A stretch of 64,000 bases of DNA, from NCBI GenBank assembly GCA_022495995.1, contig JAFEMH010002517.1:248001-312000 (forward strand), written 5' to 3'. The notes under the pieces were generated by a model. The model made no database searches. It saw only the letters and a program-made list of their open reading frames with translations, and was not told where the DNA came from. The translations under genes were made by a program, and so were the position numbers. Source of the stretch: Adenophora triphylla var. japonica. Its lineage: Eukaryota; Streptophyta; Magnoliopsida; Asterales; Campanulaceae. Positions 29,732 to 63,314 of this stretch are shown in pieces (position 1 is the first letter of the stretch; the number at the start of each line of letters is the position of its first letter).

Positions 29732-32092
29732 TGAGTACCCTGACCCAAACTCGTGTTTTTGGGTCCGCTTTCCTTGAATTGCAAAGACTTTGCCTTAATA
29801 TTGGGCTTGTCTCATTTATTCACATTCATTAGTTTTGGTCCTGCCTCCTTTCGGCCCACTCTGCCAGTAAAAGGACCGGTGTCGTACGACATTGAGAATA
29901 ATTATCAGTCAGCGTTAAAAAGGGGGATTTTCTCATTTTTGTGGGGAGGCAATACCAATCTCTCTCTCTCACTCTCAGATTCTCTCACTAGCCGCTCTCT
30001 CTCTCTCAAGACGCAAAGGGCGTAGCTCTCTCTCTCTCAGCGTCTTCCCCACCAATCCTCTTACACCAAACCAATTCGCCGGCAACCCACCTAGCTCTTC
30101 CTCTCCCTAAATTGCCTTCTTCTTCATCAGCTCTCACTAACCGCAAAAGACCTTTCTCTCACTACTCTCTCTCTCTAGCCGCAAAGACAGAGCTCTCTCC
30201 CTCAAACCATTCGCCGACCAAAAGAATCGTCCCTCACCGGCGACCCAAGGCCTCCCTCCTTCTCCGATCGCCATCACCGATCTCCCAAGGCCTCCCTCTA
30301 CCTCAATCATCTCTCCACCAAACAACAGAGGCCTCTCACCGCCCTCTCTCACTAAACGGTTTAGAAGGAGTCTCTCTCTCTCTAAACGCAATCCCTCTCT
30401 CAAAAACGCAAAGGGTTCTCACCATTGTTTCAGACCTTCAGATGGGTTCTCCTTCTCCGGCCAAGCCCACCACCGAGCTCCTTCGATTTCTTCTCCCCTG
30501 TTACAGACCGTAAACCCATTCACCGGGTCTCGAATCCATCATCTCCGGCCGTCCGTTCTCATAATCTCAGTCCGGTCCATTTTCGGGTCTTCACCAAAAT
30601 CAGCGTTAGTTCTTCGATCCATCTGAGAGTTCGAATCTCGCGTTCTGAAGCTGATTGGAAGGCTTCCTATACCGACGTGGTATAGGAAGTGTGGATCTAC
30701 GAGGGTAACGAATCTCAACCTTTTGCTCTCTCTCTGTTTTCATTGTGCAGTGCCATTTCCATGTTCGTTATTGGCAATTCGTGAATCTGTGATTGAATCT
30801 CTTTTGCATCAGTTTATGCTTGTGGTATTCATGTATTGATCCACATGTTTTAGCTATACAATGGTTTGAATTGGATTATCTGTGTTTTAAACACAAAGAT
30901 GAGTGTGAATCATCTATATTAACACTCATCTGAGTGTTGGTTCCTTCCCCCGTGGTTTATGGATGTGCTGGTTATGCATTCTTCTGGTTCAACTGCACAC
31001 ATCCTCTTTGTTTGGGTTAGGAGGTGATGGCCCCATGATTATGGCCCAAAATGTGTGATCATTCATATTTGGCCATTAAAGCCATATGATCCTCCCATAA
31101 TACTCATTTGTTACTATTTTTCTACTGCTTTTAGTTGGTATTGTAGTCTAGTTTCATGTTCTGAGCAGTGGGGATCAGCCTGATGAAGCTTACTGAAACA
31201 GGACACCTATGTCGTCCGACACAGGACATCCCTAAGGTCCTGTGTCATACGACATGGAGATCCCAGAAAGTCATCTTGACTTCAGTGACTTCCCAGATTG
31301 ATTCCCTTTGTAGTTCCAAGCTATGTTTAGTGTAATTTCATAGTTCATTTGTCACTGTTTGGGAAGTCTGAAACCATTTGGGTGTGAACTGTTGTTGGAG
31401 GCGGCTTATGTCGTATGACGTAGACTGCCCTGGGCATCCTGTGTCATACGACATCCGTATCACAGAAAGTCAATCTTGACTTCATCAACTCCAATCAACC
31501 TCAAATCGGTTCCAGACCCTAAACAGTGGTTCTCCATAGTTAAAGTAGTCTTATGTTAGCTTTAGATTAGCTTTGGTGGCATGTCCACCCCCTTTGTAAG
31601 AGACAGTCTGACCAGGGCATCCTATGTCATACGACATCCACGCTCCTGGGTAATCCTGTGTCGTATGACACCCAAGGTCCTGAGCAGTCCTGTGTCGTAT
31701 GACATCCGTGGCCCTGGACAGACTGCCTTAACCCATTTCCTTGTAATTCATTTTCATTAATTGTAAGTGGGATGTGGCCTCCCATAGTAAAAGGTTCACA
31801 AGTTGTAATCTCTCATTTTGATCAATAAAGCAAAGCATTAAAATGCATTTTATTACATATATTGTCTCACACAATTGCACACACTTTGGATGAATTTGAA
31901 TGTTGAACATAGAAAGACTCGTCTACGGACGAGGCGTGTTGGGTGAGCTCTATATTCTCTTCCCAACACGTAACCTGACCCCCAGACCCATTTTCTCATT
32001 TCAAAAGGTTTTTCAATGTTTTCCTTAAAAACGGCGTGGCGACTCCTAAAAAATAATTAATTTTATTTTATTTTTCGGCGAGCGTTCATTCA
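29732..32092 (+). repeat. Element A right LTR (full length)
   Basis: It starts TGAGTACCCTGACCC after GAGGGGCTCT and ends CGAGCGTTCATTCA. The first 161 bases, missing on the left, include TGTCGTACGACA (29880-29891) just upstream of the AT-rich GTTAAAAA stretch at about 29914-29921. It keeps the 44-bp segment at 30648-30691 that the left LTR lost. Confidence 0.92.
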
Positions 32093-33292
32093 ATAGGGAC
32101 ATTGATGTCCGTCTCAAGTGATTATCGGAGATGTCGGGACTAAGTTCCGTCCGCTTCTAAAGGGACTACGACTATGGCATTTTAGTGGCAGAAATGATGT
32201 AAAGATGGAGTCTTTACACCGATCCACAACACAGAATGCTCCAAGAACCAAAGGGACTAGGGGAAGGGGTATAAAGATTGGATCTTTATACTCGTCCTAT
32301 GTCTTTCGTGCCTTAAAAGGCTACTAGACAATCCTCGGAGAGTGATCCAACCTTAAAGGGACATGGGGAGATGACATTTAAAGTAAAGATTGTATTTTTA
32401 AGGTAAATAACGTAATGAACATTATTAAAGCTAAAGACATAATGTAAAAGGATGGCCGTTATGGCTTTCCTATGTCCTTTAAAACCTCATAAGGTGGACA
32501 ATCCTTGGAAGCTAGGTCAAAGGAGAGGGATGACATAATGAGAGTAAATATAACATTTTTATGTAATAAAATGAAGGGATTTCACATCATCATGTGGTGA
32601 ATCTTTCCTAGAACAAGCCACTTGTTGACTCTTGTTCATCCTTGGGAGAGGATTCCCCATGAATCATTTGTGTAGGGGAAAGGGGAATATGATGATTTAC
32701 ATGGTAAAGATAGGAACTTTATAGCAAATAATCAATGTAAATGACAAATAAAGGCAAGATAAATGACAAACAATAAATAAAGCAATATAATGAGAGTATT
32801 TCAAGGTGAAAGGAAGGAGAGATTACCAATGGTGGTTCTCTCTATCTCCCAAGGGGATTTTCCTATTTAGGAATAGTTTAGGAAGGGTTTTATGGAGGAG
32901 GGAGGTATTTTTTAGGTGTTTTAATCTCTGGAAATTCGTGGTGTCAAATGGGCAGAGTAACAGTGCCTAAAAGTTCTTTCTGAAATGGGTAGTGAAGGCC
33001 TCTATTTATAGGCTGCAGTGTGCTTCCTAAAGAAGCCGTCCGACGTTAACCTGCAACAAATGAAGCCGCTCGGCATTATCCTCTGTCGTGTCAGCATGTT
33101 TCTAGATTCATGCAAGGTGGCAGCTAGAGGCTTCTTTCCAGCATGGTTTTGCTTGGAATTTTAATTCCTAGCAGGTCCTTCCTCCCTTGGAAAGTTTGGA
33201 AAAGTTCCCAAATCGCCCCTGTACTTTATGAAAGTTCGGGAAATTGCCAGGAAACTAAACCGGAAGGCATGAGCCAGATTTGGGTACTTAGA
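32093..33292 (-). repeat. 3' LTR of element D, truncated by element A
   Basis: On the minus strand it starts TCTAAGTACCC after GCCGAGGGGCTTC, parallel to the LTR starts of B (TGTAAGTACGCC) and A (TGAGTACCC); the terminal TG appears mutated to TC. A palindrome pair at 33063-33074 and 33033-33044 is followed by a CTATAAATAGA box. There is no second copy to confirm the ends. Confidence 0.6.
33001..33074 (-). promoter_or_regulatory. LTR D promoter: AAGCCG palindrome pair plus TATA box
   Basis: On the plus strand AAGCCGCTCGGC (33063-33074) and AAGCCGTCCGAC (33033-33044) lie upstream, in transcription direction, of the minus-strand box CCTATAAATAGA (33001-33012). The same AAGCCG motif type precedes both PMD genes of D. 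Confidence 0.65.
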
Positions 33293-33395
33293 GAAGCCCC
33301 TCGGCAACGGTACTTGCAAGGCAAGTGGGGTTGTCGATAAAAGAATCCAATCTGACGAACTGCCGAGATGGATTGGGTGACCAAGGAGGTCGAGT

Positions 33396-33892: not shown

Positions 33893-34051
33893 GAAACTAA
33901 AGCTTACATCACTATCGAGGAGATAGAGGTAGCTAAAGTTGGAAAAACTAAAGCTTACGTCGCTATCGAGGAGATAGAGGTAGCTAAAGTTGGAAAGACT
34001 AAAGCTTACGTCGCTATTGAGGAGATAGAGGTAGCTAAAGTTGAAATTTGA
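33893..34051. repeat. 51-bp tandem repeats (element D)
   Basis: Three units start at about 33901, 33952 and 34003 around AGCTTACGTCGCTATCGAGG. CTATC...GATAG pairs within each unit. Confidence 0.85.
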
Positions 34052-34070
34052 CAATTCAGAGGCTGTCACC

Positions 34071-34315
34071 TGAAGAAGCTATAGCTTTCGTCACTATCGC
34101 GGAGATAGAGGTAGCTAAAGCTGGATTTTGACAATTCAAAGGTTGTCACCTGAAGAAGCTATAGCTTTCGTTACTATCGCAGAGATAGAGGTAGCTAAAG
34201 CTGGATTTTGACAATTCGGAGGCTGTCACCTGAAGAAGCTATAGCTTTCGTCACTATCGCGGAGATAGAGATAGCTAAAGCTGGATTTTGACAATTCGGA
34301 GGATGTCACCTGACG
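34071..34315. repeat. 80-bp tandem repeats (element D)
   Basis: Three units start at 34071, 34151 and 34231 around GAAGCTATAGCTTTCGTCAC. They extend the 51-bp unit with TTGACAATTCGGAGGCTGTC. CTATCGCGGAGATAG pairs. Confidence 0.9.
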
Positions 34316-34441
34316 TTATCCCATTTGGCGATAACGGAGAGTTTCCCGAAGGAGACGTTATCCCATTTGGCGATAACGGAAGGTTTCCCAGAGGAGACAT
34401 TATCCCATTTGGCGATAACGGAGGATTTCCCGGAGGATACG
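34315..34441. repeat. 42-bp minisatellite with GTTATC/GATAAC hairpin, left part (element D)
   Basis: Units start at 34315, 34357 and 34399; the array is interrupted by element B and continues at 44845. GTTATC and GATAAC in each unit pair around CCATTTGGC. Confidence 0.9.
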
Positions 34442-36663
34442 TGTAAGTACGCCAATCCAATTCGCGATCCCTTTTTAGGTTCATTTTAAATGATAAAATT
34501 GCACTAAGGGGCGTTTTGGTAAATTCCCGGTCCGTTCCGAGACTTCCGGGAACTTTTTATAAGTTTCCCGCGAAGGAAGTATTTTTTAGTACTTGTCCCG
34601 GACAAAAGGACCTACAGGGAATTAACTGCTTTGGGCTTTTAAAGAATTAACCCGAAATGTTCCAGAAGCAGGTTTTGGCGCCAGAAACGGTTATGGACGT
34701 GCCCCGTCGTGCGACAGCTTGAAGCATGGAAATTGGAAGCGTTGGGTCGTGCGACAAATAAAGCTCATTCCCAATTTACGTTTAAATACCAATTTTCCAT
34801 TCATTTGTTGGGGGGGCCTCTCACAGTTCACACACACAAACACACAGACCTCACTCTTTCTCTCTCTACCCGGAATTACTTTCTCTCTCTCCTCTCTCTC
34901 TCTCTATACGCAGGAAGCCAAATCCTCCATTGCCGTCCCCATCTTCGTCCTCACCAAGCCTCCCTCACCAAATCCCTCACCGGCGACCTCATCCAAACCA
35001 ATTTCCTCTCCCTGCATCGTCTTCCCGAAGCTCCTTCGGTCCTTCCCTCTACCTTAATCCCCTTCTTCTCCGAACTTCCCTACCAAAAACTCACCCAATT
35101 CCCCCTAGATCGGTGCCAATTCTCTCTCCTCTCCCAACCATGACGGCAACCTAATCCCTCTCAACCTTCACCGATCCAGTTTCTCTCAACCGCTCCTTGC
35201 TCAACCTGTTCCCCGGCGGTCCTCAACCTCCTCACCATCGGAAAGCTCAATCTCCATCCACAAACACTACCTCACCGCTCTACCTCCTTCAACTTTCCTC
35301 ATCCCGATCCAAAACCTCCATCGCCGTCCTCTGTTCTACCCCAATCAACGTTCCCTCTCTAAACCGTTCACCACCGTCGACCCAATTCCTTCCCTCACAA
35401 TCGAACCAAGTCAACGCCCATTCTCTATCTCTCAAGTCCAACCCCAATCTCCTTTGCCGATTCTCTGTTCTATACCTAAAAAGCCGATCGAAGCCTTCTT
35501 CCCCTGTTCCGGAGCCAAGCCAGTTCAACGCACTCACGCACGTACTGGGAACAACAAAATCAATTGGTCTGGTATTTAAGTTCAAGGTAGCTCTAAGTCT
35601 GAAGTCTAGATCCGGTTTCGAAGCTGAATTGAAGAATTCGATACCTAACGTGGTATAGAATTTGTGGACTACGAGGGTAACGAATCTCTTCCCTCACCTT
35701 TGTTTCATTTTTGCTATTGTGTTTGCTCCGTTGCAATTTGTCCCCGGACTTGATAATTAGGCTCCGTCCGCCTCCAATTATCAAGTCCCAACTGCCATCT
35801 CTCTGTTTAATTGTTGGTTTGGTGCTATTGGTATTCATGATGTGATCTATTGGTTTTGCGGCTTGATTGCCAAGGGAGTGTGGATTTCCCATATCCACAT
35901 CCCTTTGGTCAATCCTTTGTTGACTCGTAGTTATATTATTTGATCTGGTGTGGTGATTTGATCTGTTTTGGTTGTTGTTGAATCTGATTTCAAAATTGTA
36001 AAGTACCTGCATATGGCAAGGTTATGTCACGCGACACAACGGATCTCATCACCCCGTGTAGTGCGACATAACTAAGCCTATGCAGGGACTATAATTTCAG
36101 TTGTAAGTTGTTTGTTCAGTCCACTTGTCACTTAGAGTAGGGTGTGAATCCTCAATGTTCACACTCATTTAAGGTGACTGTGTTGATCCCTGTGCTTCTG
36201 TTCATTTGGTGTTGCTGTAGTGTGATTTCTTGTACAACCTCTGCAGGTTGCTTTGTTGTGTCACGCGACACATTTGATCCCTTAGATCCTGTGTCACGCA
36301 ACACAATGAGTCCTCTGCAAGAGGTTCCATTTCAGTTGTAAGTTCAGTCCTCGTTGTAAATGGGATGTGGCCTCCCATGGCAATTGGCTTACAAGTTGTA
36401 TTTCCCCTTGTTGAGTAATAAAACAAAGCACTTTTATGCATTTTACACATATCTTGTTACACACATTTGCACACACGTTTGAATGTCTTGAATGTTGAAC
36501 AACAGAAAGACTCGTCTACGGACGAGGCGTGTTGGGTGAACTCTCGGTTCTTCCCAACACGTAACCTGACCCTCGAACCCATTTTCTCTGTCAAAAAGGT
36601 TTTCAATGCTTCCTTTAAAACGGCGTGGCGACTCCTTTTATTTTTTCTGCGAGCGCACATTCA
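34442..36663 (+). repeat. Element B left LTR
   Basis: TGTAAGTACGCC ... GAGCGCACATTCA. A GTCGTGCGAC pair precedes a TTTAAATA box, then a CT-rich leader, and TGTCACGCGACA-type palindromes at 36025, 36057, 36259 and 36292. Long open frames (for example 35197-35658) occur in both LTRs but have no recognised product. Confidence 0.95.
34706..34788 (+). promoter_or_regulatory. LTR B promoter: GTCGTGCGAC pair plus TATA box
   Basis: GTCGTGCGACA at 34706 and TCGTGCGACA at 34746-34756 lie about 25 bp upstream of TTTAAATA (34781-34788). The right LTR has the same arrangement (palindrome near 42888, box near 42964). Confidence 0.7.
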
Positions 36664-36664
36664 G

Positions 36665-36682: not shown

Positions 36683-37948
36683 CTTGAAACTTGGTTTTCA
36701 AAAGTGGGTCAAACTTTCGTCCTTGTTCAACGTTCATTTCATTCATTTGTGTGTGCTTTGATTGTGTGACATTTTATGTGCTTAAATGCATCTTATGTGC
36801 TTTGTTTTATTCCGTTCCCTCCTTGTGTCCCATCTTTGTTGTCTGTGTTGCTGCTGATGCTTGGGGCTGAGATTTCTGTGTTATGCTTGGAGGCTGGGGC
36901 TGGCTATGGTTATTGATTCAGATTCTGGTAATGTGACTCCTTCTGTCACGCGACAGAGCGTACCTTAGATGACCTGTGTAGCGCGACAGAAGGTGTCACT
37001 CTGCAGGATTTGATTTCCTTGATACAGGTTATGATTGTGGGGCGGTCCCCCATGATCAAATTATTGATCCTTGATTATTATGCTCTGCGGGGATGTGTGT
37101 GTGTGTTGTTTTTTCCTTTATCACCCCTTTTAAAAAAAAAAAAATAAAAAAATAATAATAATAATAATAAAAAATCATTTTTCGCAAAATAAAGGAAGAT
37201 AGCCATCCCGCACACTACACCACGTAGATCTAGAACCCTCGGGTGCGATTGATGGCATCGCGGACGGTGATAATATTCGCCTACGTTTGAGCGCCTAATG
37301 TCAAACCTATCCCCCTAGCGCGTTATAGGTGGCACCACACATTTAAACCTTACCCAAAACGGTTGGTTTTTGACACGCCATTTTTCAAATACACTAAAAT
37401 GAGTTGTTTCAAAATTTTTAATAGACCTTCATACCTATCCCAAAATCTAGCACGTGTGGGCATGTTGCTAAATGCAACATGGTTTCACGAAAGGACATGT
37501 CGTTCCCACGGCATGTTCTAACGAGAGATCATGTCGCTTTGTCAACGTGCACCGACGAGAGGTCATGCCGGATTTTTCTTGGAAATTCCCCGAGAATACC
37601 CGTTATGCTGCCCAAATTTCTCCAGAAATTGGGGCTGCTCGTCCGTCCCATAAATGCTTTGGTTTTATTTAGGTACTATTGCCTATTATTATTTTTGAAC
37701 CAATACATTTGGTATATTTGTGGATGATGTGTCCATAGGTTCCCCCGAGGTCTAGATTGTGTGAATAAAGGATTAGTCTTTCCCAACCGTTCATAGGACT
37801 TAAAAGACACCGATTTCTACTTGAAGATTAATAAAGTGTTGCACGAGTCCGTCTCCTTTCCCGCTCTTCCCTCTCCCATACCTTCTCAAAGTTCTCTACC
37901 CTCCGTCTATACCTCTTCACCTCTGCAAGACTAAGGCAAGTTGGGTGT
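36683..37948 (+). other. Element B leader
   Basis: No gene. Palindrome pair TGTCACGCGACA (36954-36965) and TGTAGCGCGACA (36977-36988) inside CTTCTGTC/GACAGAAG arms. A poly-A/TAA tract lies near 37130-37175, and degenerate GAGAGGTCATGCCG repeats near 37490-37580. Confidence 0.7.
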
Positions 37949-45166: not shown

Positions 45167-45237
45167 AAGCCGCCCGACATGAGATGGAGAAAAAGAAGCC
45201 ATCCGGCTTGAATCCTTATTTCACCAGATTATTTAAA
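45167..45237 (+). promoter_or_regulatory. PMD1 (element D) promoter: AAGCC palindrome pair plus TATA box
   Basis: AAGCCGCCCGAC (45167-45178) and the perfect-ended AAGCCATCCGGCTT (45196-45209) lie about 20 bp upstream of TATTTAAA (45230-45237). The ATG of PMD1 follows at 45351. Confidence 0.65.
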
Positions 45238-48293: not shown

Positions 48294-48370
48294 AAGCCGT
48301 CCGGCTAGGACCTAGGCAAATGAGGCCGCACGGCTTGGAGCCTTGTCTGAACTGATTTTCTGCAAATAAA
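48294..48370 (+). promoter_or_regulatory. PMD2 (element D) promoter: AAGCCG palindrome pair plus TATA-like box
   Basis: AAGCCGTCCGGCT (48294-48306) and AGGCCGCACGGCTT (48323-48336) lie upstream of CAAATAAAA (48363-48371). The ATG is at 48470. The layout is the same as at PMD1 and in LTR D. Confidence 0.6.
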
Positions 48371-48469: not shown

Positions 48470-49218
48470 ATGGAAAAACCAGTCCGATTGCAAAAGGGGA
48501 AAAGGGATCGTTTTCTTTCCGACCTCCAATCCTGGATGAGACACAATTTTCAATCTCATAAGGGGCTATTTGACAACACCTTCAAGATCAAGTCTTTATG
48601 GCATTTGAAGGATCTCCCGCCTGATTGGGACCTTTTGAGAGCAGCAGCGAGATTTTGGGACGTCCGGAGACATGTATACTGCTTTTCCTACAAAGAGCTC
48701 ATTCCAACCTTTGAAGATTTCTGGGCATTGATTGGGGGTCCAGAAATTGAAGCTATTTCGATTCCTTTGACCGGGGACTTGCCGGTGACCGTAAAGTTGG
48801 CATCTTTTCTGCAAATTTCTCCGGAAGAAGCCGAAGGGATGATGATAGCTCCTGACAGAATCGACATTTCTGATATTCCGAGCAAATTCGGGTTTTTGGG
48901 TACTGCTGCGACCACAATATCTATGGACGCCTTTATCCTCTGCGTATTCTCCTTCCTATTCAATGCCGAGTCCTTCGGAGTGTGTCATAGTGGTCTTTTG
49001 GACATGGTCAGAGACTGCAGGGCTGGGAGAGATATTGTCCCACTAATTTTGGGAGAGACTCTACATGGCATTGACAGGATGGCTAGGGGGACCATTTCAT
49101 GCGGTCTGGGAGCCCAGCTGTATTGACTTTATGGTTGCAGGAGAGACTCGGGGGTTTACCTGGGGCTTTGCCTACCCAGTGTCCTTGGGTGATTTCTCGG
49201 AGGGGTGCACCGAGATAG
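48470..49218 (+). pseudogene. PMD2 of element D: second plant mobile domain protein, frameshifted and cut by element C
   Basis: The ATG at 48470 (MEKPVRLQKGKRDRFLSDL) was chosen because the frame upstream has no ATG. The core carries LKDLPPDWDLLRAAARFWDV, then FSYKELIPTFEDFWALIGGP and DIVPLILGETLHGID. These match the PMD2 copy in element C (PDWNLLQGAARFWD, NIIPLILGETLHGLD). The first frame stops at 49126. A one-base shift near 49100 restores SPAVLTLWLQERLG up to TAG 49216-49218. Element C begins at 49234, so the C-terminal half is outside the window or lost. It has no introns in the part seen, unlike PMD1. Confidence 0.8.
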
Positions 49219-49233
49219 CAGGATCAGGGTAGC

Positions 49234-50212
49234 TGTAGACACCCCATTCTGAACCTGTCGGAGCAGATTAATACCACTCTAAGTCTCGCCTTGAGTCAAG
49301 AGTAGAAATCCACTATTTTGTCATGTTTCGTTAAGTTTTGACTAACGACCGTTATTTTGGACTAAACTGCATACGGGATAACGAGGGAAGGACAGAATTG
49401 TCCACTGACAACCTTGTCTCGTGCGGAACTTACGTGTCTCGCGCGATACTAAGCTTCTACAGACGTGCAGAAGCCAGTTTCCTCGTCAATTTCAACCTCT
49501 TTCTTTCTGGATAAAACCTTATCAATCCGGTCATCCAATAGAATTTGGGTTCTGGAACCTTCCCAGGGTATTTTACCTCTCCACCTTCACCTCTCCAACA
49601 CCTATAAATACTTGAAGACTTTCAGTATTTCGGATCCCTGACTTTTCTGGTCGAACCCCTACATTTACTGGTTTTTCTCCCTGAAAAATTCCTGTAAACC
49701 ACCCTAAAAATCACCTAAAGTTTGTTCATCAACCTTGTTGGTAAACAAACATCGAAGCCCGAATCAAGGACCGAGGCGAAGCTCTGTCCACATCAAGATT
49801 TGACTCTAAACTTGAGTCGAAACTCTGTCCGAGTCTCTTCACACGAGGTATTCTTCCTCCTTCCTTTCTAATTGATTGTTAGAGTGGTATAATACATCAA
49901 ACTTAGGATCAGCCTAGAGCCTCTCCAAGTCATGGGGACAATCTCGAAGCAATCGATCCTATATTCCGTTTAACCTAGTTAAATGGATTATTTTACTTGT
50001 TTCTTTAATTAAAACGTCTTTTATTTGAAAACCCCCTTTTTAGCAAGACCGATATCCGGATTGGGTTGAATGGGTGCTCCTTGACCTTCCCATTCCATAA
50101 CCTAAGTCTCGAACCCAAAAATATCTTTTCAAATGGTTTTTTCTATATTTCCAACTAAATAATATAGGTGGCGACTCAAAAGATGTTAAAGAAAAATTCA
50201 CGCATCGCTACA
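49234..50212 (+). repeat. 5' LTR of element C
   Basis: TGTAGACACCCCATTC ... CATCGCTACA (979 bp). It matches the solo LTR at 19306-20256 in reverse orientation. Confidence 0.9.
49415..49610 (+). promoter_or_regulatory. LTR C promoter: TCTCGYGCG motif pair plus TATA box
   Basis: TGTCTCGTGCGGAAC (49415) and TGTCTCGCGCGATAC (49434-49448) precede TATAAATA (49603-49610) by about 155 bp. The same motifs and box occur in the solo LTR. Confidence 0.7.
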
Positions 50213-50231: not shown

Positions 50232-51461
50232 CGATAAATTTAAAGTGGCTTAAACTTGCGTTAATAAAGAAGGGTTTCCAAATAAAAAAAAATCGTTGTT
50301 TGTATTCAGATCAAGCTAGTCTCGCACGATACAACCTGTTTCGCGCGAGACAATGCTTCGGCAATCAGCGTGTCTTCGGGTTTTCCCTGTTCGTCTCAAG
50401 ATCCAAGATGAGAGTCGAACACGCAAGAGGAATTCCAGATTACATTATCTGCAGAGTTCTTTCATCTTAAGGCATCCCTTAAGATGTAGAACTCGAATCC
50501 GTATTTAGTTTAAATAATTGATTATTATTTATAAACTGCGTGTGATTGGGTTTTTAAATTAAAGTCCGGTCCAATGGGGATTCGGGAGTTGTAATTAAAT
50601 TATTTATCTCTCTCTCTCATTAAGTGGAACTACGACGGCCTGAGTCTTTCGAATTTGGGAGAAACGTAGGCAACCACTTGGTGCGGCCATTATCTGTTTT
50701 ATTTTTATCTTTTCAAAAAAAAAGTCTCTATTTTATCTATCACCTAGATTGACTCTCTCACACGCGCACGCATGTTATATCTGTCATTGCACTACATACC
50801 CCCATTAACCCGAGACCCACACTAAGGACGGGTGACGGTAACCACCTAGTCGCCGGTCTCTCCGAAGTTGGATCATCTCACTCCGCGTATTCAATCCACC
50901 TAGATTGTCATATCGCGGGGAGCCTAGCCTTCCAGCTCTGCATCACCACATATCATGTAGATTGTCTTTTTAGGATCACTCCGTGACCGGTCGGTTTTGA
51001 CTTGGTGATCTCTCTTATTTTTGACAAAAATAAAGCCATATAAAATTGACCATAAAAAAGGACCCGGAATAGTCCCTTCGGAATGACCCTTTCGGATTTG
51101 TCCCTCAAAAGAAAAAATAGCCCTTCAAAAAAAAAATCCTTCAAAGAATCTTACATGGCTTTGTTTTTCAAAAATTGGACTGATTACTTAGTCGTTAGGT
51201 TCTGATGAAGACCTTAGAAACCCCTCAAAATGGATTCTCCATTCCGACCAAGAATTAGGTTTAATAAAAATCGACTTTCCGTGTGATTGTCTCGTGCGAG
51301 ACTACCTGTCCCGCACGTGACAATGTCTCTGTTTGCTGTGTTTGAGCCTGAACTGTTTAAGCCTTCTTCCGACTCGTTGGGGCTAGATTTGATCCTGATA
51401 CCATCTCTGCGTCTCTTCTGTCAGTTTTCCGAAGCTACTCAACCTCAAGACTCCCAACACA
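50232..51461 (+). other. Element C leader between primer site and gag
   Basis: No gene. Palindrome pairs at 50318-50352 (CTCGCACGA, TTCGCGCGAGACA) and 51287-51322 (TTGTCTCGTGCGAGAC, GTCCCGCACGTGACA). GAACTACG hairpin at 50627-50688. Conserved block CCGTGACCGGTCGGTTTTGA at about 50981, shared with element A. Confidence 0.75.
50627..50688 (+). promoter_or_regulatory. GAACTACG hairpin, copy C1
   Basis: GAACTACGACGGCCTGAGTC, a weak inner TCTTTC/GGGAGA-like stem, then AACGTAGGCAACC and GTGCGGCC. Confidence 0.65.
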
Positions 51462-54400
51462 ATGTCCGGCATCGACGAAATTCCGGGTGACGAAACTTTG
51501 TCCGAAAACAATCACAAACTGCTAGAAGAAGCCAATGATCGCTTAGAAGTGCAAGCTACCCAAATCCACACTCTCGTGGAAGAAATCCAAGAGCTTGGGC
51601 AGCACTAGCCAATAAAGAAAAGAAGAAGAGAAATGATTCTTCCTCCGAAGAAGAGGAATCATACACCAAGAAGGCCAAGGATCATCGCCAAAGAAAAAGC
51701 AAGAAAAAGAAGTACGAGCCTAGCTCGTCATCTTCCTCCTCTGACAATGAGAGTTACACATCCAAGAAAGATAGTAAAGGGGAAAACAAGAACGAACCCC
51801 TCACCATGGCCATGTTGGAAAAGAAACTTGCATCCCTCGATGTAGGTAAGGGAGCCTCGCTCTCTATTGATTACGACACCCTTCGTCAATCCATGTCCAA
51901 GCTTCCTAGAAAATACAAAACACCCGACATTGCACAATTCAATGGTACCACCTGTCCCAAATCACATTTGGAAACCTATTCTTGGGCCATGCTACCTATG
52001 GGTGTTGATGACAACCTGCTAGCTCAATGCTTTCCACAAACTCTCGATGGTGCCGCTAGAGATTGGTACATGACTCTTCCACTCTCCACAAGGCTTGATT
52101 GGCCACTCGCCAGTCGTACCTTCCAAAAGCAATATGAGGATAACTCCACTTACCGCACTACTAGAAGGGACCTCGAACAAACCAAGCAGCTTCCAAACGA
52201 ATCATTTACAGACTTCGTCAAAAGATGGAGGACCAAACCGACTGAAATCGTTGATAGGCCAAGCCTAGACGAACAAATCCACATCCTCATCCAATGTCTT
52301 CGGGAATAGTATCAAGACAAACTCGCGGGCAACTATTTTCCTAGCTTCGCCGAACTCCACAAATCCGGCATACGGTTAGATGACCTCATCAAGCAAAAGA
52401 GGGAAGCCAAGAAAGAAAGCGGTTTCCGTTACAACAAAAGTTCCTTTTCCAACCCTAAGGACACTTCCGTCAATGCTATAGTCTTCAATCATCCCGGAAA
52501 TGGTAAGTACTCTACGGTACCTCCACCACAAAAGAAGAAAAGGGATAGGCATTATGACAAACTTGAGGGGATAACTCAAGAGGAACTCCTCGCGGTGCTT
52601 GTCAAGAATGGAAAAATCAAACCAAGAGAAGGTGGACCACCAAAGAAAGATCTTCCTGCTAATCAAGCTCATCATCTCTTCTGCAAGTACCACAACTTCA
52701 CTAGCCACGACACCAACTCATGCTTCCACCTGAAAGACGTCATCCAAGATCTGTTCGATGATAAAGAGATAGGACTTCCTAATGTTGTTACTAATCCTTT
52801 ACCAAATAATGAAGTCAATTTGATAGAAATAGAAGGTAGCACCAAGGATCCTACTCGTCTGGCCACAATTGTGGACGAGAGCCCTTTTGAATTTAATAAT
52901 TCTTCTTTCTGCTACATGATGTCTTGGGATGAACTCTTAGAACAAAAAGGAAAAGGGTCTAAAACAGTCAACCTCCTCACACGATCTGGTCGAGTGATTA
53001 TCAACAAAGACCCAAGGGATGAAAATCCTCCTAAACAAGCAAAAGCCCCATCATCAAATGAGCCCGAAGATCCTCTCTTAGCCCAGCTAAAGAAGACACA
53101 AGCAAACATCTCAGTTTGGGATCTCATAGGAGCATCCCACAAGTATCGTGAAATGTTGAAGAAGGTCTTGGCTCAAATGAACATTTCCTCAGAAGCTACA
53201 CCCAAATATCTTACTCAAATGATTGGCCAAGTACAATTTGGCAACGTCATCACTTTCACCGACTTGGACCTCCCATCCTATGGGAACAATCATCATGAGG
53301 CCCTATACATAACTGCTAAGGTGAATGGATATCGAATGCCACGCATTTTGATCGACAATGGTTCTGCAATCAACGTCCTTCCAAAGAAAGCCTTATCATC
53401 ATTGGGTCTCACCCACAAAGACCTTAAGCCATCAGGGCACACTGTGCGAGGCTATGATTGTACTGCTAGAACTGCTTTGGGTTCGGTCGCAATACCTATA
53501 GAAATGGGGCAAGTCACCATGAGCATCGAATTTCAAGTCATTGACATCCCGACATCCTTCAACTTACTACTTGGCCGCCCTTGGCTACACGACATAGGGG
53601 GTATACCTTCATCCCTACACCAATGCATCAAATTCAGACACAATGACACAATAGTCACCATACACGGGGAAATGGTTACTGCTAGCCCTATCCTCGAGGT
53701 ACAACACAACACTTCTGATTACTTGTTCAGTGGCTTCGAGATTGAGAAAGAAAGCACTGTGAGTGTCATTGAAACTTGCATTGAAAACGACTACTCTAAA
53801 GCACTTTGATTTTTCGAAAACCTTCCTGTTTGGAGAATGATGCAAGCGAAAGGGTACTTTCCTGGCTTGGGACTTGGCAAACACTTACAAGGGATAACGG
53901 ATCCACCGCCGGTTCCCCCACCACACACGAAGCATGGCCTAGGATACGTCATTTCCATCCGCGATGAAAGTGACGAAGAAGAGTAGGACTTCACTCAAAT
54001 CAAGTGGGAAGAAACCGCGTACAAAGGTTACAATGACCCAAAGGCCAAAAACTGCAACCTCGAACCATACCGAAAGACACTCAACGGCTACTTCGTTAAG
54101 GAAGGAGAAAGCATCCCATACTTTATCTTTTCAGAACCATGGACTGACGATAAAGGAAAGCGCCAACCAGGCTTTGAAATTTTCAGCGACTGCGACGCTT
54201 CGTCAGATGAAACAGAACCCGTCCCACTAATCCTTAAAGATTTGTGGGGCAAAAAGGCAGAAATGACCAGCGAATGGGACTTTGTGTTGGGAGAAGAAAT
54301 GCTACGACAGTTAGAGAACCTGTGCCAGCTAGAAGACAACCAGATCCATGCAATATCCAAGGGGGATGCTCCAACTATTGATTACACAAGGCTAATCCAG

Positions 54401-57400
54401 AAATGTGATGAGCCAATTCTAAACTGGCACGTCACCGGGGGACCAGTTGTTGATGAAGACTTCATGATCAAAGAGCTTGGGTGTACTCCCTATCCCCACA
54501 GGAAGATAGGCCATATAGCTTTCACTTTAGAGTCAGGCTCCACCTCTGATGAACTCACTCAAGAGGAAATTGAGGCGGTGGCCAAACATGTATTTCCTTA
54601 CTTCCTTAACGAAAACTTTGATCTTTCCGAGTACCCTGAGATTGCTAACATCGTGAATAATGAATTAACTAATAATAATCAATATAATGAACAAGTTAAT
54701 AATGAATCATACTATGAGATAGACCAAGAAAATGAACAAATTTTAAAAGAATTAGCAAAGCAAGTAGGTCGTTGTGGAAAGAATGGCCCCGTTGACAATG
54801 AAGAAATGCAAACGGTTAATATCCGGACAACAGAAGATCCCAGAGAAACAAAGATCGGCAACTTCTTCAAGGGGGAAGACAGGGAAACCTTAACGCAGCT
54901 CCTCAAAGAATATGTTGACGTCTTCGCTTGGTCCTACAAAGATATGCCTCGGTTAAATCGGTCGATCGTAGAACACAAAATACCGCTACTACCCAACGCC
55001 AAACCAGTCAAACAGAAACTACATAGAATTAACCCCAAATGGTCAATGCAAGTAAAAGAAGAGATCATGAAACTCTTGAACGTAGGGTTTATCAAGGTGA
55101 TCGAGTATCCGAAATGGCTAGCCAATACAGTACAAGTAGCCAAATCAAATGGGAAAATATGAGTCTGTGTTGACTTTAGAGACCTGAACAAGGCGTCCCC
55201 TAAAGATGACTTCCCGCTACCGAACATAGACATGTTGGTCGACGCCACCGCAGCATACGAAGTCCGCTCATTTGTAGATGGCTTCGCAGGGTATAACCAA
55301 ATTCTCATGGCAGAAGAAGACCAACACAAAACAACGTTCACCACGCCTTGGGGGACGTTCTGTTATACGGTCATGCCGTTTGGTCTGAAAAACGTTGGGG
55401 CTACTTATCAAAAGGCAGTCACAACGCTGTTTCACGACATGATCCACAAAGAAATAGAGGTATATGTGGACGACATGATTATCCACTAAAAGGGGACAGA
55501 TGGTCAGCACTTCAGAGATCTCAGAAAATTCTTAAATCGACTGAGACAATACAAAATGAGGCTCAAACCCGCGAAATGCTCATTCGGGGTGGTCAAAGGG
55601 ACGGTCCTAGGATACATGGTCACCGAACGTGGCATAGAAGCGGATCCCGCCAAGATAAAGGCCATCATAGACATGCCTCCACCCAGAACAGAGAAAGAAG
55701 TAAAGGGATTCATGGGCAGACTCCAATACATCAGTCGATTCATCAATTAAATGACTACGATGTGCGATCCTATCTTCAAGCTACTTAAGAAAAATGCACC
55801 TCAAGAATAGACCGAGGAATGTCAAGAAGCGTTCGAGGAAGTTAAGCACTACTTAACCTCCCCACCCATCCGGGTTTCACCACACAAGGAAAAACCCTTA
55901 AAACTATACCTCACGGTTACTGACAATGCGCTAGGGGCTATGCTCGCTCAAGAACAGCCAGCTTTGCACACTTTGTCAGCCACAGATTCCAAGGCAGCGA
56001 AATCAATTACTTCCCACTCGACAAGTCTTGCGCTGCTCTTGTCTGGGTAACACAGAGACTAAAGCACTACATGGAAGCCTTCCCGGTTCGTCTAATAGCA
56101 CGAATGGATCCTTTGAAATACATCCTAGACAAATCAAATTTGTCTTCGCGACTGGCTAAGTGGTATTTCATGCTCGCGGGATATGATATCACTTACGTCA
56201 CTCAGAAATCCATCAGAGGCAGTGTATTCGCAGATCAGTTGGCCGAATTTCCTTGCGACGAAGTGAAGGGGGAAGACCCGTGATTCCCCGATGAGGACAT
56301 CATGAGTATAGAAGACGAAAATAAGTGGCAAATATTTTTTGATGGCGCAGCCAATAAGAAAGGTTTCGGCATCGGAATGTTGTTAGTGGATCCCGACGAT
56401 ATCTATACTCCACTAGCAATACGTCTTGTCTTTGATGCCACCAATAACACGGCCGAATATGAAGCTTGCATAGCGGGACTCGAAGCAACCCTAGAACGCA
56501 ACGTAATCAAACTTGAGGTATTTGGGGACTCCCAGTTGACCATCAACCAGACACTGAAAAAGTGGAGGACCCAAGATCCGACCCTTCAAAGATACAATGC
56601 CCACCTCCAAGAGTTGGTGCAACAATTCCAAGATGTCTCATTCCACTATCTTCCTAGAGACAAAAACCGGTTTGCTGACGCATTGGCTACACTTGCTTCC
56701 TTGGCTGAAATCCCTGCAGGAAAGACAGTAAAACCCTTCAAAATAACCCGACGAGCAACTCCTGCCTACTGCGCCGTCATAGACCTCCATGACTGCAAAG
56801 ACAAGTGGTTATCTGAATGCACCACCATCGAAGACTCCAAAAAGAAACCAGGGTACTATGACATTTTGAATTTCATCCTAGATGGAACCATTTCGCCTGA
56901 GGCCGACAAGAAAACTCAGATTACCCTTAAGAGGCTGGCATCTAACTACGTCATCATTGCTGGCCGTCTATTCAAAAAATACTCCCAAGGGAACCTCCTT
57001 TGCGCCACCGAAGAAGAGGCCCAAGAAATAATGGACCATGTTCATCAAGGAGTATGTGGAACCCACATGAGCGGAAACATGCTCGCCAAAAAGATCATCA
57101 GACAAGGGTACTTTTGGTTAACCATGGAAGCCGACTGTACCAGCATGGTCAAAAAATGCCATAAGTGTCAGATACACACCAACCTTCAGCACGCACCGCC
57201 TTCCCTGCTATATCCTATGACATCCCCTTGGCTGTTCTCAACATAGGGCATAGATGTGATTGGAAAGGTTACACCCGCAGGAGCCAACGGGCACTGTTTC
57301 GTCCTAGTAGCCATCGACTATTTCACTAAATGGATGGAGGCTGCCTCCTACAAAGTTTTGAACGCCAGAAAGGTAGCAGAATTCATCAAGCACAACATCA

Positions 57401-58097
57401 TCTGCCGATACGGGGTCCCACAAGAGATGATATCTGATAATGGCTCCCATTTCGAGAAAGAAACCGACCGCCTCTTAACAGAGTACAAAATTGTGAGGTA
57501 TGTCATAAGTCATCTCCTTACAGGCCTCAAACGAATGGAGTAGTTGAAGCCGCAAACAAAACGATCGAAACCATCATCAGAAAAATGGCAGTCACTGGGA
57601 AGGACTGGCCCGACAAACTACTCTTCACACTTTGGGGATACCGCACTTCGATCCGAAGAGCTACATGGAGGACTCCATACGCTCTCACATACGGAATGGA
57701 AGTTGTTCTACCAATAGAATTGGAAATACCGTCACTAAGGGTTCTCCTAGAAAACCAAGTGAATGAAGTTGACTGGTTAGAAAGCAGACACGAAGAGCTA
57801 GCCCTGCTAGACGAAAGAAGGTTGAGAGCAGCCGAGCACACTCAAGGTTACCAAAGAAGAATGGCAAGAGCTTTCAACAAAATGGTCAAGACAAGAAACA
57901 TCAGAGTAGGCGACCTGGTTCTCCGCGAGCATCGTCCTGGACCTTTCAATCCTCTAGGCAAGTGGGGACCAAGATAGATAGGACCCTACGTTGTTAAGAA
58001 GATATTCTCTGGGGGAGCCCTTCAGCTAGTGGACTTAGACGGAAATAAACTACCGAAGCCGGTCAACATGGACAAGCTCAAAAAGTACTTCGCGTGA
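51462..58097 (+). pseudogene. Element C gag-protease-G-patch-RT-RNaseH-aRNaseH-integrase polyprotein, decayed
   Basis: ATG 51462 (MSGIDEIPGDETLSEN). One frameshift near 51590 leads into the main frame. In order: Ser/Lys-rich linker; Gag (FNGTTCPKSHLETYSWAM, 51950-52290); zinc knuckle FCKYHNFTSHDTNSC (52680); protease ILIDNGSAINVLP (53345); G-patch-like MMQAKGYFPGLGLGKHLQGI (53838); RT with VCVDFRDLNKASPKDDFPLP, MPFGLKNVGATYQ and YVDDM (55465); RNase H start LYLTVTDNALGAMLAQ, then a frameshift near 55960; archaeal-type RNase H FFDGAANKKGFGIGMLLVDP...NNTAEYEACIAGLEA (56335-56500); integrase zinc finger and DDE core VAIDYFTKWMEAA, VPQEMISDNGSHFEK. A frameshift near 57510 precedes the tail ending at TGA 58095-58097. 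Premature stops lie at 52307, 53807, 53984, 55160, 55487, 55748, 55808, 56281, 57244 and 57975. The copy is dead but complete in domain order. Confidence 0.92.
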
Positions 58098-58262: not shown

Positions 58263-58280
58263 TTGTCTCGCGCGAGACTA
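58263..58280 (+). promoter_or_regulatory. Single C-family palindrome downstream of pol
   Basis: TTGTCTCGCGCGAGACTA: the core GTCTCGCGCGAGAC is a perfect 14-bp palindrome, the best version of the C-family motif in the window. Confidence 0.8.
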
Positions 58281-58605: not shown

Positions 58606-61324
58606 TGTGAGGACCTCAACCCGGAACCTAACCCGTGTCCCGAGCTAGAGCGTCCTCAATAGAACTCAAACTACCTAAACTTTTTAAAACTTTGATTTAA
58701 CTTACAACTTAAACATACTGAACATAACCATTTCAAAATAACTTCATTCCTCTCTACATGGGAGGAAGAGTTGAATAACTTTAAAAGTAACAACCTGTTT
58801 TAATTACAAAAGACTTTGGTTATAACGTAGAAACTAAGTTTTACACACACAAACTCCATAAATGAATTATACCAAAATACATCTTCTACGCCAACCTATA
58901 TGTACCCTGACAATCCCAAAATACCACGTCCAAACTCCTTTCCGTCCTCACTTGGCCGGTCCGCCTGTCTCAGGATCTAAAAACATTAAAGGGAGAGGGG
59001 TGAGAATAAATCTCAGCAAGCTATTATGAATGTAGCAATATGCCAAGTAAGATGCAACACATAACAAAGTACATCTCACATATTGGTAAAACAATAAACA
59101 CCTTCCGTTACCTTTGTTTACCTTTCCCGTCTGAATCATAAGTCGTACCACTGTGGAAGTAAATACTCCACTTATTCTGTGAATGCATATCCACCAGAAT
59201 CAATATCATATAACCGAGATAGTTATGATTATAACTCATCTCCTGTGAACTGCTTAGGCATATTCACATATTATAAGACCCGTGTTCCAGGGAACCATAT
59301 AAGATAGTAGCAACTCTGTAAGGCTTTTGGCTCAATACAGACGCTATAACCCCAGTCTGTGGCCACAGAGGGGGAGAGGTCACAGGTATAATGTAATCCG
59401 AGCACCTTATGGAATAATTTCTCATAAGTGATCGTATTCCATTATACCCCCAAAGATCAGCTGATATAAACACGCTCAAGCACATAATAGATACTTGAAA
59501 TAACCTCCACCAAAGGAATAATAATATATCAACATGGTAATGTATACTCATGCTAAGTCAATACCATAGTGCAACATTCATTTAACACACTATACATAGT
59601 ACCATCAATGAATATGAATCCAAGTAAGGTACAATATAATCATATCCACACTTGGGATAACCATGCAACCATAAAATGAACATATCCACCCTTGGGATAA
59701 CAATGCAACCATATAATGAACATATCCATACTTGGGATAACAAGTTAACAACATAGTATATATAAATCCACACTTTGGATAATAATGAAACAATGTGATA
59801 AATACACATTCCCAAACTAGCACGATAGGGTAACATACAGCTTCTACACTATTCAAACCAATCACCAAGGATATGGGCAAGTAAGGCCACTATGTATCAT
59901 AAACCATTCCTACATAGTCATTATACAACCTCGAATAACCTTAATAAAAGTTCAAGATCTACTTCCAATGTTTGAACTACTTTGGTGAAGTTACTAATCA
60001 AGCCTATTAACCATTTTCCGGACAATATTTAAACCACTTCCACTAATCCATTTTGGTCCAATAAGACGTCATTGTGTAGCCAAAGTATTCTATTTTAATC
60101 TAGGTTAAAGAGGTTTCATTTTAGTTCTAGTTTGAATAGGTTTAAACAGCTCTAAAGTTGGTTCAAAGTCACCAGGTCAGGGCACGACTCGTGCCCATTT
60201 GACCTTCCCCAGAATCATGCGTCCCCAGAAGGCACGAATTCAGCTTAAACTTGATCACGACTCGTCCCCTCCTCAGGCATGACTCGTGCCACAGGGCACG
60301 ACTCGTGACCTGAGCCCAGAATTCAGAACAGACTTAAAAATTCTTCAGCAACCCAACCAAATTGTTCCAAACTAAATTTCCCCTGTTTTGTAAACCTAGA
60401 AGGGCTTACTAAACTTCATCCTTTTCATACTAAATCGTTTAAACCCCAAAATAGCATAAACCTAGATCATTTACAACTTGATTTCCCATCCATTTCACTA
60501 CCACATTTCAAGTTTAATCTTCTTAATCTAACTCAACCCATTTTCTTACACTCTTACTCAACTTCCATGAACAACAACATTATTCTATGTCATTAACCAA
60601 TTCTTCAACTCCAAGAAGGGTTCCAAAGCATCAATCAACCATTATAATAACAATAACAACATCAATAGTTCATGAACATTTAATGAAGGGAAAGTCATAA
60701 TAACTCACCTTAGAATTATGAGATGGATTAAGGATTTTCTTGGCTTGATAAGCTTCCCTAGTTGCCCCGAACACAAAAGTACACCCGGATTGTAAAATGG
60801 AGAAGGATTGAATGCCCCAAGAACTTGGAAAGGGGTGGTCTTCAAGAAGGAGCTTCCATGGAAATTATTGGAAAAGAATGAAGGAGGATAATGGAGGAGT
60901 ATGGGGAATGATTGATTAATTGAAGGAGAATAATAGAAAAGATGGGGGAAGTATGGGTGAAGTTTGACTAAGAAAATGGTGGGGAGGAAAAGAGGGAATA
61001 TGGCCCCCTATGCTATAATAAATGGAAACTTCCCAATTTAAACATTTAAGCCCCTAAATTTCCAAGGAATGAAATTAAACCTTCTACTTCTCTCCTCTAC
61101 ACAAGTACCACCCAACTACTCATAATTTATTTATTTTCAATTAATATACCACAACAAAATACTTTAACTTATTTCCATTTTATCCTAAGCTTTAGAATTA
61201 TTTCACAATCACCTCATTTTAACATAGGAAAATCAAGGACACAAAATGAACGCATAAAGTCAACAATAATATAAAAAGCATATAATATGATACTAAAATA
61301 GTTCCTAGGGTTAGGGTCGTTACA
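58606..61324 (-). repeat. Solo LTR E (2.7 kb) inside PMD2, perfect 5-bp target duplication
   Basis: The minus strand starts TGTAACGACCCTAACCC and ends GAGGTCCTCACA. ATCAC flanks both sides (58601-58605 and 61325-61329). The TGTAACGACCC start is common in plant Ty3/gypsy chromovirus LTRs, but the lineage is a guess. It has no internal region or ORF. Degenerate CTTGGGATAACAATGCAACC repeats lie near 59640-59800 and GCACGACTCGTGCC palindromes at 60180-60310. Confidence 0.88.
60180..60310. promoter_or_regulatory. GCACGACTCGTGC palindromes in solo LTR E
   Basis: GGGCACGACTCGTGCCC (60180-60196) is a perfect palindrome around one base. At least three weaker copies (ATCACGACTCGTCCCC, GGCATGACTCGTGCCA, GGGCACGACTCGTGACC) follow by 60310. 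It is a fifth family-specific core in the same layout as in the other LTRs. Confidence 0.75.
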
Positions 61325-62785
61325 ATCACCCCCGTCATCTCGATCTCTCTTGCGCTTTGGACCCTTCGAAGCAGAACATCCTTCGAGGCGAGTGAAAACA
61401 GATCCCAAAAGCCTTTTGAAGACATTGGGCCTATCCAAGGCTTGCATCTTTCCGGGGAGACCCTTACCTCGTCGCTCGTACCAATCCCCATCAAGAAAAT
61501 CTTGGGTTGGATCAGTCCGTACATTAGCAGGATCAGACTGGGCCTCACTCCTTCTCAAAATACTGCTCCCCACGAAGGAATCCCCTAACAGTGAAAGCCA
61601 CAGATCATCAATCTTCTCCGCACTTGGGTGACCGGTATGAAGGAACCAATCCAAATACTTGTCAGATAAGAAGACGCTTGCATCAAAAGTCTGAAGGTTT
61701 GACCAGCGATCTCGATTAGTTCCTTCACCCCATGCTTGAGCTAACACCTTCGCAAACTCCACACCGATATAGGACACTTCACGAGAAGCTCCTTCGAAAA
61801 GATAAGTGTCCTGCTGCTGGCCAAACTGACGAAGCACCCGCTTGGGAAAATAAAAGGAAGAATCTCGCAAACCCGGGAGAACAACCCTGTCGAAACCCTT
61901 GGTATTGGCAACATACTTGTTCAGTCTCCAATAAGGTGGACACCAAATAATATCTACAGTGGCGGTTTTTGCAATCAACTTGGCCCACTCATCCACCGAG
62001 AGATCCTTGATCAGCAACTTCCTCAAGTGGTATGTGAATGAGGAATACTCCAACGGAGGATCTACCAACTTGAGATGTTCCCTAAGCCAAATAGTCAACA
62101 AAAGAGGACTCCCTTGAGTCATGGCACCGGTCTTATGCAACTCATCAAGACCATGCAGGGTTTCACCCAAGATTAGCGGGATAATGTTCCTAGAACGTTT
62201 CCTAGCCTGCAGAACGATTTCCACCAATTGGGAGTCAACCAAGCCATCCCTGCACGTGAACAAAACATCTCCGAAAAGAGAAAGGGCCAGAAAGTTTCAT
62301 TTGTAAACATGGAAAACCTCGTCATCTGAATCTCCGCTGAAGCGTTCAGGAAAAGAAGAGCAATCCACCCATCTGCGTCGAACCAACTCATAGCAAGTGT
62401 CAAGGGGGATCCCCAACAATTCATTCAAAGCTTCTGAATGGTTCCTATTGAATTTAGGAACATCGATTTCACCAGTCAAAGGCATATCCAAAATAATGGC
62501 AAATTTCTCAACAGTAGGCACCATCTCATTAAGAGAGAAATTAAAGAGATGAACAGAGGGATCCCAAAATCGAGCAGCACCCTGCAGAAGATTCCAATCC
62601 GGTTGGAGGTTCTTCAAAGTGAAAAGGATTCTGAATCCGAATTCTGCAATAAACTTATTGCGAGATCGATTACGAAACGACCTCACAAAATTTCTTGATG
62701 CATGCTTGAATGCTTCGACTACATAAGATGGCAGAGAAAAATCATCAACAATCATGGATGTTGGGACGATCTCCATGGAAGCCAT

Positions 62786-63314
62786 GGATCACAGGGTTGG
62801 AAAAGAAGGCAAGAATTCGACCATAACAGAATATCTCTAGAGTTTGAGAGGCTAGAATGAGTTATCTGGCCTGACTACAGGGTGTTTATATATAGGAAGA
62901 ACTGACAGAACCCTGTTCGAAGAAGAAAAAGAATTCCTCCTGAGTAGCGTGTCTCGCGCGAGATACCTTGTCCCGCGCGATACATCCCTTAGGCAAATCC
63001 AGCAGCATTCCTGCACAAATAAGCAATCTAGCCCCGACTTGACGAAGCAAGTCTCGAATCCTGCAAATGCAGCTCCCAATATGCAATACAGGCATCAAAA
63101 TCAAGCCCAAAACTTTGACCTAAATGGTCATTTCATTCCACCACCGAAGTCGAGAAAGTTAAAAAATTAATTAGACCTAGGACTAGGAATTAAGAAAATC
63201 TTGTTCTTTTGTGCTACCTACGTGCTACCAGGTACAAGAAAAGAAAAAATTGTCTGGGCCCACCCGGCCAATATTTACAAATTCTCAAAGAAATGAATGG
63301 GGAGAAAAAGGGGG
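62786..63314 (-). other. Spacer between PMD1 and PMD2 of element C
   Basis: Holds the PMD2 promoter (62886-62983) and the 3' flank of PMD1. No further gene is seen. Confidence 0.65.
62886..62983 (-). promoter_or_regulatory. PMD2 (element C) promoter: TCTCGCGCGAGA pair plus TATA box
   Basis: GTGTCTCGCGCGAGATA (62949-62965) and TGTCCCGCGCGATACA (62969-62984) lie about 55 bp upstream, in transcription direction, of the minus-strand box TATATATAA (62886-62894). The core is the same as in LTR C and after pol. Confidence 0.7.

Follow-up and report, generated by a model that had tools for sequence, protein, structure and literature searches.

The window analysed here, a stretch of 64,000 nucleotides from contig JAFEMH010002517.1 of Adenophora triphylla var. 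japonica (assembly GCA_022495995.1, positions 248,001 to 312,000 of the forward strand), contained four long terminal repeat (LTR) retrotransposons, designated elements A to D. Short palindromes (hereafter dyads) with arms private to a family recurred in the non-coding parts of these elements, mostly as pairs. In elements C and D, the same dyad was present in the LTR and ahead of genes of the PMD type, which run antisense to the element.

Retrotransposons and antisense PMD genes

The elements, a related LTR and the PMD genes were located at the following window positions.

~20.9–32.1 kb: element A; LTRs 95.6% identical over their shared part, 5' LTR truncated
34442 to ~44840: element B; 2.2-kb LTRs, 97.9% identical; sits inside element D
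~32.1–34.44 kb and 44.84–49.23 kb: element D, minus orientation, split by element B
~49235 to past the window end: element C, starting inside PMD2-D
51539..57974, plus strand: coding part of element C, with gag, protease, reverse transcriptase (RT), RNase H, a second RNase H (RVT_3) and integrase pieces
~19334–20256, minus strand: LTR E, a related LTR, 70% identical to LTR C
45351..47949, plus strand: PMD1-D, antisense to element D, with a PMD domain; exon limits set by eye
48470..49234, plus strand: PMD2-D, antisense to element D, interrupted by element C
61217..62785, minus strand: PMD2-C, antisense to element C; 3' limit uncertain

A second RNase H is characteristic of the Tat clade within Gypsy (PMC9289625). 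Element C, the only one with a pol found in the window, encoded such a domain (RVT_3) beside its RT-RNase H. A protein search with the RNase H/integrase piece of C returned 185 relatives, of which 19 were aligned; the named organisms among the 120 relatives listed were flowering plants, consistent with a plant origin of the window. Most of element D, including its pol, lay beyond the window, as did PMD1-C. Searches of elements A and B (tblastn with proteins encoded in the window itself, and Pfam on nine of their frames) detected a gag-like match in A and, in B, A-like matches; neither element yielded an RT, integrase or PMD match. Within the reach of these searches, both elements look non-autonomous. 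By eye, the flanks of element B read ATACG and ATATG, and no primer binding site was seen downstream of LTR E.

PMD1-D matched the PMD profile (PF10536) at 46136–46852 (E 1.1e-19, 71.2 bits, cut-off 34.9) and contained at least two in-frame stops, as read by eye. PMD2-C matched DUF7745 in two pieces of 41.7 and 30.3 bits (E 1e-10 and 3e-7; cut-off 26) and the PMD profile at 1.6e-6, below the cut-off of that profile; it had one in-frame stop. The DUF7745 match of PMD2-D (21.8 bits) was under the cut-off, and the gene aligned with PMD2-C at 32% identity (1.6e-20). Its frame stopped near 49126, and the similarity continued in a different frame. Protein searches found one relative for PMD1-D exon 2 and none for the PMD2-C piece. 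The Pfam scan, which covered 40 frames, 31 of them inside elements A to D, yielded no further accessory-gene candidate among those 31, although short or spliced genes could escape it. No DNA relatives were found in a viral contig collection (searched with three proteins and one alignment) or in a bacterial genome contig collection (searched with the alignment). The primer-binding-site pattern matched 1 viral and 20 genome stretches, none with related proteins.

The elements also contained tandem arrays. Those of element D (33894–34442 and 44860–45110; 51-, 80- and 42-bp units) adjoined its 3' LTR, and the insertion point of element B fell within the 42-bp array. Ahead of its 3' LTR, element B had a 39-bp array of 27 copies (41352–42397), with an inverted GAGAC...GTCTC in many units. 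The stretch between pol and PMD2-C of element C (58600–61340) looked like a later insertion.

Distribution of the dyads

Counting one LTR per element, 33 sites were identified (C, 9; D, 6; B, 8; A, 10). They fell into 17 clusters, of which 15 held two or more sites, with a spacing of 19–20 bp in C, 29–30 bp in D and 32–34, 40 or once 29 bp in A and B. Elements A and B carried TGTC-N4-GACA, with 15 exact copies in A, 6 in B and 1 elsewhere (in C). The dyad of element C was TTGTCTCG-NN-CGAGACAA (eight copies with at most three mismatches, and one more in LTR E), and that of element D was AAGCCG-NN-CGGCTT (six copies with at most two mismatches, none elsewhere in the window). The sites were as follows.

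22208..22703, plus strand: LTR A (5') body, TGTC-N4-GACA at 22208/22241, 22408 (one arm mismatch)/22441 and 22624/22658/22692; 3' LTR copies 31210 to 31704
23359..23399, plus strand: A leader pair, TGTCACGCGACA at 23359/23388
29880..29891, plus strand: LTR A (3') U3, single TGTCGTACGACA; the 5' LTR is truncated before this point
34706..34755, plus strand: LTR B (5') U3 pair, GTCGTGCGAC at 34706/34746, 40 bp apart, with TATA-like TTTAAATA at 34781; 3' LTR pair 42888/42928
36025..36303, plus strand: LTR B body, TGTCACGCGACA-type pairs 36025/36057 and 36259/36292 (partners with one arm mismatch); 3' LTR copies 44200/44233 and 44435/44468
36944..36988, plus strand: B leader pair, 36944/36977 (partner with one arm mismatch), 3' of the primer binding site
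33033..33076, minus strand: LTR D U3 pair, 33063/33033, 30 bp apart, with TATAAATA at 33003–33010 on the minus strand
45167..45209, plus strand: PMD1-D promoter pair, 45167/45196, 29 bp apart, with TATTTAAA at 45230
48294..48336, plus strand: PMD2-D promoter pair, 48294/48323, 29 bp apart, with a weak AT-rich box near 48361
49416..49449, plus strand: LTR C U3 pair, 49416/49436, 20 bp apart, with TATAAATA at 49603
50319..50351, plus strand: C leader pair, 50319/50338, 19 bp apart, 3' of the primer binding site
51289..51321, plus strand: C leader pair, 51289/51308, 19 bp apart, ahead of gag
58265..58278, no strand assigned: C post-pol site, single perfect GTCTCGCGCGAGAC directly 3' of pol
62951..62983, minus strand: PMD2-C promoter pair, 62970/62951, 19 bp apart, with TATATATA at 62887–62894 on the minus strand
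20049..20066, minus strand: C-type site in LTR E, three mismatches

The sites of element C fell outside its gag-pol and PMD frames as read. Arm mismatches occurred in five partners: one each at 22408, 36057, 36292 and 36977, and four of the 16 long-consensus positions at 49416. Differences among the A sites were mostly CG to CA or TG, fitting decay of methylated sites, and the two LTR copies of one site (22658 and 31659) differed by a change of this type. Over all elements, CpG was present in most sites. An initial annotation of the locus had described a core that was specific to each family and common to the LTR and its antisense genes. Within an element, it was the arms that were common; in A and B the inner four bases differed between sites.

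That annotation had also placed palindromes before TATA boxes at seven named places. The palindromes were read back at all seven, six with a pair and LTR A with a single copy. The boxes fared less evenly. An exact TATAWAWA was present at LTR D, PMD2-C and LTR C (in the last case 153 bp away), and LTR B and PMD1-D had one mismatch. Two mismatches were needed at PMD2-D and LTR A, and these boxes are no better than chance; among random 70-bp stretches, 45.8% equalled a box with two mismatches and 8.7% one with a single mismatch. The named places accounted for 13 of the 33 sites. The other 20, located in leaders, in LTR bodies and after pol, were mostly away from any TATA box. For the C leader pairs, every candidate box on the plus strand within 70 bp had at least three mismatches; one box with a single mismatch was found downstream of 58265. 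Since most of the added sites had no nearby TATA box, a promoter reading covers only part of the sites.

Dyads of other kinds were also seen. ACTAACG-NN-CGTTAGT occurred in the U3 of LTR C (49341–49356, imperfect) and of LTR E (20133–20148, perfect, 16 bp). CCTCT-N7-AGAGG dyads numbered six in A (26684–26974) and three in B (39213–39353), some of which fall within a 50-bp tandem repeat. At 9460–9555, there was a cluster of TAGAGT..ACTCT-like dyads with GGAATGTTC/AGAATGTTCT, reminiscent of heat-shock elements. Elsewhere in the window, fragments of a Plant_tran (PF04827) transposase (14385–14783) and of a reverse transcriptase (4698–5315, minus strand) were found.

Excess over chance and sharing between LTRs and PMD promoters

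Motif counts in the whole window were compared with those in 500 dinucleotide shuffles; the motifs had been derived from this window, so the counts are partly circular. TGTC-N4-GACA occurred 22 times (shuffle mean 0.94, maximum 5). The C 18-mer with at most three mismatches occurred nine times (eight in C, one in LTR E; mean 0.19, maximum 2), and its 14-mer core with at most two mismatches 11 times (nine in C, one in E, one in D; mean 0.86, maximum 5). The D 14-mer with at most two mismatches was found six times, always at the three promoters of D (mean 1.08, maximum 5). The comparison with shuffled sequence, set beforehand in the initial annotation as a test of its pattern, gave real counts above the shuffles for the A/B, C and D motifs. 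When half-sites were permuted and the resulting dyads were counted on the real window, the real count was matched in 0/11, 0/29, 0/11 and 0/11 cases, for the four motifs in the above order. The permuted dyads reached maxima of 3 for the A/B motif (11 dyads), 6 for C (29) and 4 for D (11).

Given this circularity, tests without a motif weigh more. For each region and for 30 shuffles of it, all dyads with halves of 4 or 5 bases were counted and the highest count was taken. This maximum was 15 against 4 in A and 6 against 4 in B (both LTRs counted); in C it was 3 against 2 with 5-base halves and tied (4 against 4) with 4-base halves. A control stretch (1–18000) showed no dyad excess in the same test with 30 shuffles. 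Other dyads also rose above the shuffles; examples are CCTCT-N7-AGAGG (element A) and GACC-N5-GGTC (element D), each located in a repeated stretch.

Some measures were tried and set aside. The recurrence of palindromic relative to other 14-mers was higher in A to D and lower in the control, and it was not used, since its top class consisted of 4–14 k-mers per element. Similar near-palindrome pairs 15–45 bp apart (with a GC filter) numbered 18, against a mean of 0.89 and a maximum of 5 in 200 shuffles; as some of them were repeats of another kind, the measure served only as a list. Helical phasing of the paired sites, hinted at by the distances of 19–20, 29–30 and 40 bp, was dropped, since those of A and B are mostly 32–34.

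The same dyad was present at the LTR and at the PMD promoters in both of the elements in which PMD genes were found (C and D). For a comparison independent of the motifs, the best match of 22 bases was determined between 12 regions (66 pairs) and in 300 shuffles. Four pairs reached 18: three joined the promoters of D with one another, and the fourth (A–D) was plain LTR homology. Of the 300 shuffles, 2 did so. With 16-base matches and 17 regions, three of which (two leaders and the post-pol region) were added knowing their sites, 12 of 136 pairs reached at least 15, as did 2 of 400 shuffles. One of the 12 was an LTR homology, and 11 linked regions within one family, either C (with E) or D; at this level, no cross-family pair and no pair involving the six controls was seen. 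Limited to the 12 original regions, three of 66 pairs reached 15, all within C or D. The motif-free comparison agrees with the sharing of dyads between LTR and PMD promoters, clearly for D and weakly for C.

Candidate readers of the dyads

A dimeric DNA-binding protein would be expected to leave just such a trace, a dyad with constant arms that is paired at a distance typical of its family. We give an even chance to the dyads being operators for such a protein, encoded by the elements and most likely PMD, which activates or un-silences the LTR and its own genes. The reader is predicted to be dimeric because the sites are dyads, and to be encoded by the elements because the arms are private to a family; PMD is suggested because the PMD genes carry the same sites as the LTR. 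The paired dyads in the LTR and ahead of the antisense PMD genes would then be bound by this factor, whose effect on both would presumably be positive. A fuller relative would act in trans on elements that lack a PMD gene, which is suggested because A and B carry sites and no PMD gene was found there. Anti-silencing of the kind known from VANC proteins is favoured over a plain promoter switch, since the sites are spread over non-coding parts and not only beside TATA boxes. The C consensus differs from a B site (44465) at four of 16 fixed positions, two of them a symmetric pair, and this likeness would fit one kind of reader that drifts. Operators for a family-specific trans-factor had been proposed in the initial annotation, with the PMD proteins as candidates. 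The private and mostly paired dyads, the LTR-PMD sharing in two of two elements and the presence of sites in A and B fit a trans-factor; that PMD, the natural candidate, is this factor is what we infer.

Known systems offer partial parallels. For VANC, from the VANDAL DNA transposons of Arabidopsis, short family-specific motifs have been described in non-coding parts, often in tandem and differing between related families (PMC5735166, PMC10398659). The dyads are likewise short, private to a family and located in non-coding parts. Element C itself falls outside the VANC/VANDAL system: VANC comes from DNA transposons, whereas RT, RNase H and integrase mark C as an LTR retrotransposon, and the extra genes give PMD/DUF7745 matches. 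The VANC21 motif YAGTATTAY is, unlike the dyads, not a palindrome, and protein binding and demethylation at the dyads would be predictions. The foamy-virus protein Tas binds the LTR and also the internal promoter that drives its own gene; this gene lies between env and the 3' LTR (PMC4929722). Elements C and D similarly have a site common to the LTR and the accessory-gene promoter (weakly in C, judging from the 22-base matches), with binding being predicted; foamy viruses are animal retroviruses and their internal promoter is sense, whereas the PMD genes are antisense. To our knowledge, VANC is not a PMD protein, and we know of no homology between the Tas and PMD systems.

Parts of this picture are already in print. 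Antisense accessory genes are represented by gene23 of the plant Gypsy element Grande, which has its own promoter and a nuclear product (PMC7264820), and by Retand TRP28, an antisense protein predicted to bind DNA and for which a regulatory role has been proposed (PMC11963269). Like the PMD genes, they are antisense and lie between pol and the 3' LTR; they differ in having a TRP28 instead of a PMD domain, and no motif shared by LTR and promoter is described in the accessible parts of these reports. The PMD-A1 and A2 clades are Gypsy-only (PMC5418596), and a PMD domain occurs in 57% of Ogre elements (PMC6317226). The host proteins MAIN and MAIL1 share the PMD domain and differ in being products of host genes required for silencing. 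A 'DOWN' motif marks promoters that depend on them, and direct recognition of a promoter motif is one of two published hypotheses (PMC7156037). In the literature searched, as far as its text was accessible, no report was found of sites common to an LTR and its antisense genes.

Several observations weigh against operators read by PMD. DNA binding by PMD is putative here, and every PMD gene of the window is broken or incomplete. A sequence-based search found no solved structure among PMD relatives, and a fold prediction for PMD1-D exon 2 from a two-row alignment was too poor to be used (mean pLDDT, the predicted local confidence score, of 36). Neither A nor B keeps the inner bases of its dyad constant. 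A CG-NN-CG centre was tried as a common rule and dropped, as it was present in 18 of 33 sites (C 9/9, D 5/6, B 2/8, A 2/10). In its exact form, the D dyad only ties with the shuffles (3 against 3). The sharing between LTR and PMD comes from two elements, C and D, only; the U3–PMD2 promoter pair of C reaches 17 with 22 bases, as do 13 of 300 shuffles, and with 18-base matches 37 of 400 shuffles are as good. Comparing LTR C with LTR E as a footprint was rejected, as conservation was not beyond the U3 background: one site was kept at 17 of 18 positions and the other at 4 of 18, and 11.8% of U3 windows were as conserved as the better one.

The dyads could instead be sites of host transcription factors, exploited by the elements with different host factors for each family. 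The use of host transcription factor motifs by plant LTRs is established, and the pairing and proximity to a TATA box at LTR B, LTR D, PMD1-D and PMD2-C would fit an ordinary enhancer. We nevertheless consider this explanation unlikely: each family has arms of its own within a layout that all of them use, the same pairs stand upstream of accessory genes, and many sites are far from any promoter seen. Rather less probable is a reader that is encoded by the elements and is not PMD, such as the product of a C or D gene that lies outside the window or went unrecognised. PMD1-C and most of D are indeed beyond the window, and the antisense TRP28 proteins of Retand, as cited above, are predicted to bind DNA, with a regulatory role proposed for them. 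Both extra genes seen in D, however, are of the PMD type and carry the pair, and the Pfam scan of the 31 frames in A to D, which could miss short or spliced genes, gave no other candidate.

Explanations without a protein reader appear improbable. Part of the A sites lie within a 34-bp tandem unit and the elements contain many unrelated tandem arrays, as would be expected if the dyads were parts of short duplicated units and a functionless by-product of repeat growth. Against such an origin, the same dyad occurs at separate places in one element, in unlike surroundings, and at the promoters of unrelated genes. Of all the explanations considered, we find an action in RNA the hardest to credit, with the dyads forming hairpins or dimerising palindromes for packaging. 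Palindromes serve as dimerisation signals in retroviruses, and leader pairs are present in A, B and C, several of them between the primer binding site and gag. Yet mismatched positions showed no wobble bias (9 G-U, 14 A-C and 11 other, against 146 paired), Rfam gave no match in the window, and sites are also found in U3 and ahead of the antisense genes.

Returning to operators for an element-encoded factor, a more far-reaching version may tentatively be proposed, in which retrotransposon PMD proteins would be sequence-specific anti-silencing factors that read the paired palindrome of their own family at the LTR and at their own genes, and that serve non-autonomous relatives in trans. On this view, the host silencing proteins MAIN and MAIL1 would be related to a protein with which a parasite reads DNA. 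A set of dyads that is common to the LTR and the PMD genes and private to each family makes the role of PMD for retrotransposons addressable by a binding assay. If PMD does read the dyads, LTR retrotransposons would own an equivalent of the VANC code, and the sequences recognised by retrotransposon PMD proteins would offer a way into the activity of their host relatives MAIN and MAIL1. Such reading would also hint at how elements that lack pol or PMD remain linked to fuller relatives.

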